Part shown: positions 42,258 through 47,535 of the stretch, in pieces
Layout of the letters: each line of letters opens with the position of its first letter
How positions within the stretch are numbered: the first letter of the stretch is position 1
Assembly: GCA_018267385.1 (NCBI GenBank)
Contig: JAFDYN010000023.1
Coordinates: forward strand, 1-64,000
Direction: 5' to 3'
Length of the DNA: 64,000 bases
Source: Bacteroidota bacterium
GTDB lineage: Bacteria; Bacteroidota; Bacteroidia; Chitinophagales; LD1
The notes under the pieces: model-generated
Database searches by the model: none
What the model saw: only the letters and a program-made list of their open reading frames with translations
What the model was told of the DNA's origin: nothing
Position numbers and translations under genes: made by a program

Positions 42258-43430
42258 ATGTCACCATTTACAGAGAGCCATCAGCTGCTCCGTCAGTCGT
42301 TCCGCCAGTTTGTAGAGAAAGAGATCACTCCTAATGTCAAGCACTGGGAGGAGAATAAGATATGCGAGCGTGAGGTCTTTACCAAGATGGGCCAGCAGGG
42401 CTTCTTTGGGGTCAGCTTCCCGGAGGCTTATGGTGGCAGCGGTATGGATATGTGGTCTGCAGTCGTGATCAGCGAGGAGCTGACACGTGCTAATATCGGT
42501 GGCCTGGCCATGAGCCTCTATGCCCACTGCTACCTGCCACTCCCGGTGATCAATGCGCTCGGCACTGAGGAGCAAAAGCAAAACTACCTCGTGCCTGCCC
42601 TAAAGGGCGAGAAGATCGCAGCACTCGGCATCACAGAGCCGGGCGCGGGCTCTGATGTAGGCGGTATCAAGACCACCGCAGAGGACAAGGGCGACTATTT
42701 TGTGGTAAATGGCTCGAAGATGTTTATCACCAATGGTACGATGGCAGACTTCATCGTACTCGCCGTGAGGACAGGAGAGGGGCATGCGCTGTCCCTCCTG
42801 CTGTTTGATACAAAGACCACGGGCTTCTCCGCCGTACCAGTACTCAATAAGATGGGTATGCACTCCAGTGATACAGGCCAGCTTTTCTTTGAGAATTGCG
42901 TAGTGCCTAAAAGTGCCCTGCTGGGTGAGAAGGACTTTGGTTTCTACTATATCATGAGCAACTTCCAGGAGGAGCGCCTCATAGCTGCGGCTACCGGTAC
43001 CGCCTCTGCCGAGAATGCACTGGAGAAAGCCAAGCAATACATGAAGGAGCGCGAAGCATTTGGCAGGCCGATAGCTAAGTTTCAGGTCCTGCGCCACAAG
43101 ATAGCCCAGATGGCGATCAAGGTAGAAGCCTGCCGCTCTCTGTCCTACCGCGCTGTAGCCGAGTACATAGAGAAGGGACCTGCTGCCTACTATATCGTCT
43201 CCGTGGCCAAGGCCTTCGTATGCGAAGAGGCATTCAACGTGGCCAATGAGGCGCTGCAGATACACGGCGGTTGGGGCTATATGGAGGACTACGGTATAGC
43301 ACGCACTGTACGTGATCTCCGCCTCATGACCGTAGGCGCGGGCACTACTGAGATCATGCACGAGATCATCTCGAAGATAGAGATGGACGAGGTGCGCCAT
43401 GAGAAGGTACAGATCAAAGCACGGGTGTAG
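42258..43430 (+). CDS. Acyl-CoA dehydrogenase, long-chain type
   Basis: The 390-residue flavoenzyme oxidises acyl-CoA to enoyl-CoA and feeds electrons to ETF. FAD-binding and family motifs: ALGITEPGAGSDVGG (122-136), GSKMFITNG (152-160), REAFGRPIAKFQ and IHGGWGYMEDYG. The usual catalytic Glu region near the C-terminus reads VGAGTTEIM instead of YEGTSEI. A Glu in QEERL (E239) takes its place, as in long-chain and isovaleryl-type enzymes. Length is typical. No ETF genes are adjacent. A terminator follows. Confidence 0.94.
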   Translation: MSPFTESHQLLRQSFRQFVEKEITPNVKHWEENKICEREVFTKMGQQGFFGVSFPEAYGGSGMDMWSAVVISEELTRANIGGLAMSLYAHCYLPLPVINALGTEEQKQNYLVPALKGEKIAALGITEPGAGSDVGGIKTTAEDKGDYFVVNGSKMFITNGTMADFIVLAVRTGEGHALSLLLFDTKTTGFSAVPVLNKMGMHSSDTGQLFFENCVVPKSALLGEKDFGFYYIMSNFQEERLIAAATGTASAENALEKAKQYMKEREAFGRPIAKFQVLRHKIAQMAIKVEACRSLSYRAVAEYIEKGPAAYYIVSVAKAFVCEEAFNVANEALQIHGGWGYMEDYGIARTVRDLRLMTVGAGTTEIMHEIISKIEMDEVRHEKVQIKARV

Positions 43431-44344: not shown

Positions 44345-44656
44345 CTACTGCTTATAATCAAAATGCTTCATCCACAGACTGCCTTCCACAGATACCTTGC
44401 CGTCCTTGATGTACACCTTATCACCATCTTTCACAGTCAAAGGTCCGGCCGGCGTAGCGATGGAGGCAGTAGCGCAACCCTTTATGACTACCGGACCGGT
44501 GCGGTTGTGCGCGAGTGTGATGGTAGATGTTTTGCCGCAGGCAGTGACCATGTAGGTATGGTTTACGGAGTCATCGTTATATACTTTGAGATGGGTCTGT
44601 GCGTGGGCACTGCTATAGATGCCAGTGGTGATGAGTAGTAGCAAGAGGGATTTCAT
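44345..44656 (-). CDS. Small secreted beta-protein (paralog 1)
   Basis: The 103-residue protein has a signal peptide (MKSLLLLLITTGIYSSAHAQ) and a mature beta-rich domain with two cysteines: LKVYNDDSVNHTYMVTACGK, HNRTGPVVIKGCATASIATPAG and LTVKDGDKVYIKDGKVSV. It is clearly related along its length to the product of 47251-47535. The two genes were probably adjacent copies before the 2.4-kb AT-rich gene came between them. Periplasmic or secreted; function unknown. Confidence 0.75.
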   Translation of the reverse strand: MKSLLLLLITTGIYSSAHAQTHLKVYNDDSVNHTYMVTACGKTSTITLAHNRTGPVVIKGCATASIATPAGPLTVKDGDKVYIKDGKVSVEGSLWMKHFDYKQ

Positions 44657-44768
44657 ATTCTGTATTTAGGTGATAAATAATTGATATCCATGTTACCCGG
44701 TATCATTTATCATGCCATGCCCCGTTTTGTAGTACGTGCAACAATTATTAAATAGCCGATTAACTACA

Positions 44769-47114
44769 TTAGTTTAAAAGATCGTCGAATAAACTAGTAG
44801 ACATTCTTCTTGCTAAAAAAGTATAAGGATATTTTTCATCTAAAAGATCTACTCCGATGACTGCAATTCCTAAAGAGTCTTTAGCGTTTTCATCTTCGAT
44901 AATTCTTGATATAACGTCATTTCGCAAATCGGTGTCACCGTTTATGTAAGGGTAAGCGGCAATTGCATAGAATCTTCTTTTGGGACCAGTAGTAAAAAGT
45001 AACCAGTTATGCTCATTAGGGGCCTTCCCTTTTATGATTAGATGTTTTAATTCTTTTAGCTTTTTTTCAAATTTAATTTGATCCTCTTTGGTAGAGTTCA
45101 ATAAAATGAATGAAGTTTCAAGCCATCCCTCTTTTTGGCTCTGAGCAGTATTGGTCAAGATATCTCTCCACCATTTTGTCATTGCCAGTTCTGGCTTTTT
45201 AACTTTAATATTTTCTCCTTTTGCTATGAAGTAGGGATCTAATTCTTTGGATTTGGGAATCAGATTGAATGCGGCTTCTTTAGAATATTCAATTTCACCT
45301 ATGTTGAATCCCTGCTCTAAATAAAAGGCTAATAAGTCAAGTTCGTCACCTTCATAGTCTAAGTGGGCTTCTATTTCCCTTCGTCTTGACAAGTAATGTA
45401 GTTTTTCTGCTTCTAGGGGTAATAATTCAAAAACAGACTCTAGATCTGTTACATTTATCGATGGTACCAATTTCTCAATACTTGCTTTCACAACTCCCGC
45501 TTGAATCATTTTTTTTAGATTGCTACTAATAGTTCCTAGGTGGGAAAATGTTACACCTAAAGGGATGTAGTATTTGATTTTAGTATTGTCAATGTGATGT
45601 GTTTCTCCTTTTTTTGTAGCGAAGTGATGTATCCCTTTATTATCCTTTAAAAATTGCACAAATCTCAAGCTTTGTTTTGCGGGAGATTCAATCAGGTCTT
45701 GCAGTGTTTCGAAAAGTCTTTGGGGGGCACCTCTCTTTGCTGGATCACTTATGGTGCCAGACTTAGCTTCAACGATAACAGCAAAACTGTCAATCATCAT
45801 TATTAAATCGTTTTCATATGTAACACCGGGGTCAAGAGGATTGCTCCACATGCTTCCACGATAAATTTGGGCTGACGGAAATCCTTCCCTAAAAATCCTT
45901 TCAACCTCGTCTTCAAGATATTCGGCTTTCTTTTGAGTATAGGAAACTCTTAAAGCTGTATTATCCCATATCAAGTCTTCAAGGATAGATAAAGAAAAAT
46001 GAGGAAGCGCACCTCCCAAAGAGGTAAACCAAGTGTTTTCATCTATTTTAATAAAAGGCTTTTCGTTTACAGGGTTGCTTAAAACGAAATGCTCCCAGTT
46101 TGAATTTTCTAAATCACCAAATTGAAAGGACAACTTATCTAATAGAGTCCTCAACTTGTCGATACTACATTTCTCTTTACTTAGTGAAAATGCTTCAGCT
46201 AGGGTAAAAGAAAATATATGATGTAAGAACAAATCAGAATGACAAACTAAGGTGCTTTTAAGTGCCTTAAGATTTTTTCCAACCATATCCCATATTCTAG
46301 ATGCATCTTTTTCTATAGAAAGATGTTCCGAAAAGGCTTGATTATATGTTTGGATCACTTGTTTGTAATCCTTTTTATGGAAAAAGGATAAAGCTTTATT
46401 TCTGTGAGTATTTAATTTAGAAGTTTGATGTTCTAATATTTCAAAAAGTACTTTTACCAAAACTGACGCTTTTACACCATATATGATTTCAAATTCTTCA
46501 TCTATTAGCAGACTCAACTCTAGTGTTATTCGTTCCATTTGATGTGAGTATGCCCAGTTTCTAACAGCTGTGGTGTTCATTATCATGTCATTACGTAGTC
46601 TATAGGCATGCATATCCTCATCTGTACTAATGTTAGATGGAATGTTAAACATTCGCATAGACAGAAGCATTCCGATGTGTTTCATATCCTCTTCCAAAGT
46701 GATTGCATTATTTAGTAAAGGCTTGGCCGATACATTTCTTTTTTGGGATAGAGAAAAAGCTTGGAGTATTTCTAAATAATGAGGAAAAAATGGAGTTCCT
46801 TTTCCGGAAATTTCAGGGTCTAAACCTTGTGGATGAGAGATCAAATAATACGCACAAAATGAGAGCAAGTAGAGCGCATCATATTCTTTAAACCAATTTT
46901 GAAGTGCTGGATACTTTACATCGAGTTCTTCTTTAGCCTTGCTACCTATCTCCCTAACAAATTTAAGTCTTTCTTGGGCACTCATTGAATCCGGATAGGG
47001 ACTTCCCATTTGGACAAATGCGTTTTTCACCGCAACCCAAGGCTTTGTTTGTCTTCCAAGAATTGGATTTTTCTTTTTCTTTTTTTTCTTCTTTCTATTT
47101 GAAGACACAGGCAT
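44769..47114 (-). CDS. Large protein with PD-(D/E)xK nuclease signature, AT-rich, acquired
   Basis: The 781-residue soluble protein begins with a Lys-rich tail (MPVSSNR then nine Lys). Residues 25-390 are mostly helical and unassigned. Residues 395-455 carry a restriction-endonuclease-like core: helix AEYLEDEVERIFREGF, then YENDLIMMIDSFAVIVEAKSG, giving D436 and E449-x-K451, followed by a helix with Gln472. The rest (about 480-781) is mixed, with FILLNSTKEDQIKFEKKLKEL and RRFYAIAAYPY near the end. Its base composition is far more AT-rich than all neighbours (14 of 60 GC at 45061-45120 against 33 of 60 at 43261-43320). It lies between two paralogous genes on the same strand. Nuclease function is inferred from the motif; a role in phage defence is a hypothesis. 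Confidence 0.65.
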   Translation of the reverse strand: MPVSSNRKKKKKKKKNPILGRQTKPWVAVKNAFVQMGSPYPDSMSAQERLKFVREIGSKAKEELDVKYPALQNWFKEYDALYLLSFCAYYLISHPQGLDPEISGKGTPFFPHYLEILQAFSLSQKRNVSAKPLLNNAITLEEDMKHIGMLLSMRMFNIPSNISTDEDMHAYRLRNDMIMNTTAVRNWAYSHQMERITLELSLLIDEEFEIIYGVKASVLVKVLFEILEHQTSKLNTHRNKALSFFHKKDYKQVIQTYNQAFSEHLSIEKDASRIWDMVGKNLKALKSTLVCHSDLFLHHIFSFTLAEAFSLSKEKCSIDKLRTLLDKLSFQFGDLENSNWEHFVLSNPVNEKPFIKIDENTWFTSLGGALPHFSLSILEDLIWDNTALRVSYTQKKAEYLEDEVERIFREGFPSAQIYRGSMWSNPLDPGVTYENDLIMMIDSFAVIVEAKSGTISDPAKRGAPQRLFETLQDLIESPAKQSLRFVQFLKDNKGIHHFATKKGETHHIDNTKIKYYIPLGVTFSHLGTISSNLKKMIQAGVVKASIEKLVPSINVTDLESVFELLPLEAEKLHYLSRRREIEAHLDYEGDELDLLAFYLEQGFNIGEIEYSKEAAFNLIPKSKELDPYFIAKGENIKVKKPELAMTKWWRDILTNTAQSQKEGWLETSFILLNSTKEDQIKFEKKLKELKHLIIKGKAPNEHNWLLFTTGPKRRFYAIAAYPYINGDTDLRNDVISRIIEDENAKDSLGIAVIGVDLLDEKYPYTFLARRMSTSLFDDLLN

Positions 47115-47124
47115 ACTTCTGATA

Positions 47125-47141
47125 CTTTATATATAAAGATA
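47125..47141. promoter_or_regulatory. Palindrome over the promoter of the nuclease-like gene
   Basis: CTTTATATATAAAG (47125-47138) is a perfect 14-bp palindrome 10 bp upstream of the start codon. It overlaps TATCTTTA (minus strand, 47141-47134), a near-match -7 box. This is a plausible site for repression or autorepression. Confidence 0.45.
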
Positions 47142-47202
47142 TCAAAATTAACATACTCTATTTTAGATTACTTGCCTAGCGTATGGGTACAATATCCCTA
47201 AA

Positions 47203-47250: not shown

Positions 47251-47535
47251 TTAGAGGCTGCTTACGACCTCTACCTTGCCACCCTTGATATGGATCTTAT
47301 CTCCGTCCTTTACCTTGATATCGCCGTTAGGCGTGCTGATCGTGGCATCACTACATCCCTGAATAGTGAGGGTGGCAGTACGGCTGTGCTCAAAGGTCAC
47401 TTCTTTGTTATTGCCGCAGGTCACGGCTTTGAACGTATAGTCTTTAGAGTCTTCATTATAATAGCGCAAAGTGGTACCGGCGAAAGATGCCACTGCGATA
47501 CCGGCAGCGGCGAGGGTGAGGATCAGTTTTTTCAT
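47251..47535 (-). CDS. Small secreted beta-protein (paralog 2)
   Basis: The 94-residue protein has a signal peptide (MKKLILTLAAAGIAVASFAG) and the same mature domain as the 44345-44656 product: LRYYNEDSKDYTFKAVTCGN, HSRTATLTIQGCSDATISTPNG, IKVKDGDKIHIKGGKVEV. Both Cys are conserved. It has its own promoter and terminator. Periplasmic or secreted; role unknown. Its copy lies 2.6 kb away across the AT-rich gene. Confidence 0.78.
   Translation of the reverse strand: MKKLILTLAAAGIAVASFAGTTLRYYNEDSKDYTFKAVTCGNNKEVTFEHSRTATLTIQGCSDATISTPNGDIKVKDGDKIHIKGGKVEVVSSL

Follow-up and report, generated by a model that had tools for sequence, protein, structure and literature searches.

Described relatives of a NERD-like defense nuclease candidate

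PD-(D/E)xK and NERD nucleases are well known in defense; GAPS1 is a single gene on mobile DNA, Mokosh and Nhi systems include helicases, and Wadjet is a known anti-plasmid system. At the level of the fold, a described relative of the protein analyzed here is GapS1 (GAPS1). This anti-phage protein, encoded by a single gene, comes from Gamma-Mobile-Trio elements (Mahata et al. 2024, as cited in PMC12774648) and is reported to protect against many phages (conference report PMC12908700). The NERD domain (PF08378) is found in Mokosh type I and Nhi-like defense systems too (PMC10952713).

The gene of interest lies in a 64-kb window (the whole stretch of DNA that was analyzed) and codes for a 781-aa protein with an architecture unlike that of each of these systems. 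GapS1 has 455 aa and ∼16% identity to the window protein, which has an additional N-terminal helical region, a basic tail, and a C-terminal region, although both proteins are encoded by single genes on mobile DNA. Unlike the Mokosh and Nhi systems, the window protein has no helicase fused or adjacent, and unlike the CRISPR ancillary nucleases Can2 and Card1, it has no detected CARF domain. Proteins of the SEC-C/NERD type are homologous over the core and form distant branches of the same family, but some of them end in a C-terminal SEC-C motif, whereas the branch of ∼780-aa proteins to which the window protein belongs (the 780-aa branch) has a basic N-terminal tail and no SEC-C. No account of the 780-aa branch, of its architecture, or of a link between the family as a whole and Wadjet and type I operons was found in the open-access papers searched.

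An AT-rich gene inserted between paralogs

The gene is an intact minus-strand open reading frame (44769..47114, with its ATG at 47114 and its stop at 44769) and has full-length homologs with 43 to 44% identity; the strand is absent from an earlier description made without database searches (the sequence-only reading). Its GC content is 35.2%, whereas equal-length stretches from the rest of the window average 51.8% (SD 1.8%); GC3 is 30% in the gene and 65 to 67% in three flanking genes. The local counts on which the earlier claim of AT bias was based are reproduced exactly (14/60 GC at 45061-45120 and 33/60 at 43261-43320). The small exported proteins coded on either side (44345..44656 and 47251..47535, both minus strand) are true paralogs, as had been proposed, with 46% identity (E 7e-30); the left paralog, which has no Pfam match above cutoff, is present in the genomes with an empty site, and the right paralog is conserved in sister genomes. 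None of the gene's own neighbors is a recognized defense gene, the surroundings look housekeeping, and the 64-kb window contains no tRNA and no Rfam RNA match. In one genome (G004), the left paralog is found across the 198-aa gene, on its opposite side (L047 10619-10927), reflecting a local rearrangement.

Comparison with sister genomes, which the sequence-only reading had proposed, shows the gene to be missing at the orthologous site in two members of the same genus (G001 and G003). These have collinear flanks, with 15 bp and 101 bp of unrelated sequence, respectively, in place of a 2,474-bp AT-rich segment (44724..47197) that contains this gene only, with no other open reading frame and no recombinase. 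The borders of the segment have no direct repeat of ≥8 bp, no target duplication, and no terminal repeats. The gene is foreign in origin and inserted into the chromosome, and the foreign composition together with the empty orthologous site bears out the earlier suggestion that it was recently acquired. Vertical inheritance as a conserved single-copy gene is excluded because the gene is absent from the sister orthologous sites and from the six other genomes of the genus (present in 1/7).

A further sister genome (G005) has a different, 569-aa TPR-like open reading frame in the gap between the right paralog and a Sco1-like gene (L048 2809-4518); since a different gene occupies the next intergenic gap in this genome, the neighborhood around the insertion may be a general landing site.

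A predicted PD-(D/E)xK core between flanking regions

All features of the protein are coded on the minus strand. The N-terminus, described earlier as poly-Lys, does have the sequence MPVSSNRKKKKKKKK, and it contains a Lys/Arg-rich tail (residues 6 to 15; 47070..47099) that probably binds nucleic acid and has similar basic counterparts in four homologs (L004, L002, L021, and L015). The tail precedes a region that is predicted by a low-confidence model to be all-helical and that includes a conserved RNWAY motif (approximately residues 41 to 310; 46185..46994); this is a candidate sensor or regulatory part. A predicted PD-(D/E)xK nuclease core (residues 377 to 560; 45435..45986) is supported by a core alignment, by a model of residues 377 to 546, and by structural matches.

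A bare D-x9..16-[DEQ]xK motif is at chance level in a protein of such composition, with 5 observed and 4.9 expected in shuffled sequence, and was dropped as evidence; the D...ExK motif is significant because it is conserved across homologs. The alignment comprises 22 homologs from Bacteroidota, Bacillota, Alphaproteobacteria, Streptomyces, and one haloarchaeon (four bacterial phyla and an archaeon), in which P353, E434, D436, K451, and Q481 are invariant and E401, E449, and R484 are kept at ≥90%. The motifs have the same order across homologs, with a helix-borne E followed by ExD, ExK, and QxxR, and include the putative catalytic motif E434-x-D436...E449-x-K451 (45762..45815) and a QxxR motif (Q481 and R484; 45663..45674) on the helix after ExK. 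The alignment thus gives the window protein a conserved PD-(D/E)xK signature, with an acidic residue and a (D/E)xK triad, and is consistent with the restriction-endonuclease-like core that had been proposed from D436, E449, and K451. The strings YENDL and VEAKSG start at residues 433 and 448, as stated in the sequence-only reading, but the 13 residues placed between them are the distance from D436 to E449, and 10 residues separate the strings.

A two-sequence AlphaFold model of residues 377 to 546 (mean pLDDT 58, pTM 0.57) has the order helix, strands, helix, strand (H18-35, E56-65, E68-72, H102-116, and E137-141). It is predicted with moderate confidence to be an alpha-beta-beta-beta-alpha-beta domain of the PD-(D/E)xK type with a beta-sheet that brings D436, E449, and K451 together, and this agrees with the fold that had been suggested from the residues. 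Most of the best structural matches to the core model (VIA-align, Z up to 5.6) are PD-(D/E)xK enzymes, which include Can2, Card1, Bax1, Hjc, PvuRts1I, AF1548, McrC, and the R2 endonuclease, with Can2 and Card1 giving the best scores; each single Z is modest, and the structural argument lies in the consistency of the match list for this predicted model. A second point of likeness to Can2 and Card1 is a profile match, though a weak one (E 0.036), to a DUF1887/Can2 protein. The full-length AlphaFold model (3 sequences; mean pLDDT 36) has too low a confidence to be used for the flanking parts.

Remote homology to GapS1 and NERD proteins

The window protein passes no model threshold in Pfam, NCBIfam, PADLOC, or PHROGs; it has no match to NERD (PF08378) or to GapS1 (NCBIfam NF047931, cutoff 320 bits), and it matches no known-system model in PADLOC-DB 2.0.0. 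A search of PDB sequences with the single protein gives no match, a whole-family profile finds nothing among the same sequences, and a core profile finds only weak Can2-type and AcrIIC4 matches. PADLOC matches of distant members cover only the SEC-C motif or CARF-nuclease cores, and those to PDC-S12 and E1-E2 were rejected as matches to the SEC-C motif only.

The lead to GapS1 is a weak NCBIfam match from one distant homolog. Four Bacteroidota matches to NF047931, two of them above the curated cutoff, were aligned as a GapS1 set, in which E264, D296, K311, and Q342 are invariant and the motif order is that of the window family (E in a helix, D, [DE]xK, and Q). The family profile aligns to this GapS1 profile (hhalign) over 242 columns, corresponding to window residues 318 to 580 (45375..46163), with a score of 67.9 and E of 1.2e-7, compared with scores of 15.0 for a reversed control and 20.7 for the best of 60 column shuffles; when the close branch of six members is used by itself, the match is weaker (E 6e-4). 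The alignment extends before and after the core, and these profile comparisons indicate that the window family and GapS1 are remote homologs with a relationship that goes beyond the bare catalytic motif.

The NERD relationship is seen over the same core and includes the Q on the helix after ExK. A single NERD sequence gives E of 5.7e-4 in this type of comparison, and two homologs pass the PF08378 cutoff of 22.1 bits (L009 with 23.4 bits and L023 with 24.1 bits), with a third (L007) just below it and the others below.

Distribution and genomic neighborhoods of homologs

Relatives are present in 10/398 genomes of the order and in 12/395 genomes of the phylum, and close full-length relatives (E 1e-40 or better) are present in 2/395 genomes of the class, with the source genome included in each count; the family is absent from ∼97% of the phylum sample. 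Copies on Bacillota and Rhizobium plasmids are nested in the 780-aa branch with 99/97 support, and the branch therefore moves between phyla. This patchy and horizontally mobile distribution is of the kind that characterizes defense genes. There is no homolog in the GenBank phage collection, and scans of IMG/VR with five queries found no relative. The closest relative, with 54% identity, is in a Tannerellaceae MAG (L002 3031-5191) and is split into two overlapping frames, owing either to a frameshift in the gene or to faulty assembly. A 56-aa plasmid match in Komagataeibacter (H17), a fragment that adjoins an IS66 element, was set aside.

The sites of homologs are unrelated to one another and are often on mobile DNA, including plasmids and conjugative transposons. 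When 97 open reading frames around 14 homolog loci are compared with 98 elsewhere in the same genomes (PADLOC, E 1e-20 or better), homolog neighbors match 132 PADLOC models and control open reading frames match 10, although the models are redundant and 132 is not a gene count. Homologs are thus enriched beside known defense genes in the neighborhood analysis that the sequence-only reading had put forward, with the test resting mostly on distant members (15 to 28% core identity). Among the matches listed, which are to the first 25 of the 132 models, there are at least about a dozen defense genes beside homologs, as judged from model names. The named matches are JetA, JetC, JetD, a type I methylase and specificity subunit, a type III nuclease, PtuA, and a CBASS cyclase and phospholipase, along with several candidates.

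Three loci illustrate the association with mobile elements. In G322, the homolog adjoins mobA/B/C-type genes of a conjugative transposon; in G306, it adjoins CBASS genes (cyclase and phospholipase) and a remnant of the mobC-type gene of G322; and in G1065, it is on an element of a similar kind, beside a 1,410-aa protein that from its sequence appears to have an Mrr-like N-terminus. Plasmid homologs are near a type I restriction system in Salimicrobium, near an adenine methylase in Rhizobium, near AbiE in Lactococcus, and between AbiE-type genes and AbiV in Bradyrhizobium, and another homolog (L060) adjoins a type III restriction enzyme. No partner gene other than the mob genes is shared within the 780-aa branch, which is therefore read as single-gene.

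Some distant members are in multi-gene operons, and the single-gene reading fails for those. An 812-aa relative with a NERD-like core and a C-terminal SEC-C motif is coded inside a type I restriction operon beside hsdM (L058 8828-11266). In three Bacteroidota jetABCD (Wadjet) operons, a NERD-like protein of ∼570 aa is coded by a fifth gene directly behind jetD (L057 8868-10571, L063 9541-11277, and L064 8373-10094), which overlaps jetD by a few bases in 2/3 operons. This placement is confined to these distant members, and the window gene stands alone.

Proposed role and alternatives

The window gene is probably a horizontally acquired, stand-alone (single-gene) defense nuclease. The conserved signature, the foreign insertion, the company of defense genes, and the remote homology to GapS1 are the established part of this explanation. 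Nuclease activity, DNA as the substrate, the trigger, autoinhibition, and protection are steps that we infer, and they would fit together as follows. The central PD-(D/E)xK (NERD-like) domain, which has the basic-tailed helical N-terminal region on one side and the C-terminal region on the other, would be gated by these flanking regions and remain inactive until an invader arrives. A cue from the invading phage or plasmid, read by the flanking regions, would release the enzyme, which would cut DNA in a divalent-metal-dependent manner at E401/D436/E449/K451. Cutting of invader DNA, and perhaps of host DNA too, would stop replication of the invader directly or through cell death.

A role mainly against plasmids or conjugative elements, or in exclusion of competitors of the carrier elements, rather than against phage, is rather unlikely. 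The presence of homologs on plasmids and beside mob genes of conjugative transposons, the distant members in fifth position in Wadjet, and the lack of homologs among GenBank phages and in the IMG/VR scans are all consistent with it. However, defense cargo of every kind is common on conjugative elements, the other contexts (CBASS, restriction, and AbiE/AbiV) are anti-phage, and the remote homology points to the anti-phage GapS1.

The sequence-only reading also offered a mobile nuclease as an alternative, and a selfish homing-type or transposition enzyme that mobilizes itself would account for the precise solo insertion of one gene into an intergenic site; homing enzymes of the PD-(D/E)xK type are known, and the structural match list includes one at a low rank. 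This is very improbable, since homologs are cargo of plasmids and conjugative transposons in unrelated places with no common target site, and neither terminal repeats nor a target duplication nor a partner recombinase is present. A housekeeping nuclease of DNA repair or recombination is just as hard to sustain: although the fold is common to Hjc, Bax1, and RecE-like enzymes, the gene is missing from the other genomes of the genus and from nearly all of the phylum sample, and its composition and the empty site indicate a recent insertion. The basic N-terminus could suit a toxin-like effector against other bacteria, and the split Tannerellaceae relative, if not a MAG error, could mean that copies decay and that the gene is non-functional, but such readings are the least credible, as inspection reveals neither an evident signal peptide nor a marker of a secretion system nor an adjacent immunity gene, the putative catalytic residues are intact, and full-length homologs are conserved over phyla.

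If the window gene is a stand-alone defense nuclease, it represents an uncharacterized cross-phylum family of probable single-gene defense nucleases that was missed by the catalogues searched here and that is linked to the described GapS1 family, and it points to a candidate extra nuclease component in some Bacteroidota Wadjet operons. Its locus is small, intact, and limited to one gene, and the empty sites supply a clean control, so that it would be a practical test case for how infection is recognized while the host is spared. A broader and more tentative proposal, which we regard as possible but doubtful, is that the window protein belongs to an unrecognized broad family of NERD/GapS1-like defense nucleases that share a single module (pre-core, PD-(D/E)xK core, and post-core). 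In the 780-aa branch, the module would work alone with its own sensor; elsewhere, it would have been added as a further effector to type I restriction operons and, as a fifth 'Jet' gene, to Wadjet.

Relatives of the SEC-C/NERD type are annotated as either 'preprotein translocase subunit SecA' or 'SEC-C metal-binding domain-containing protein.' The former label is carried by Streptomyces plasmid relatives (H6 to H9 and H15; e.g., NZ_CP115938.1 867-3221) and appears to misname a nuclease-like protein.
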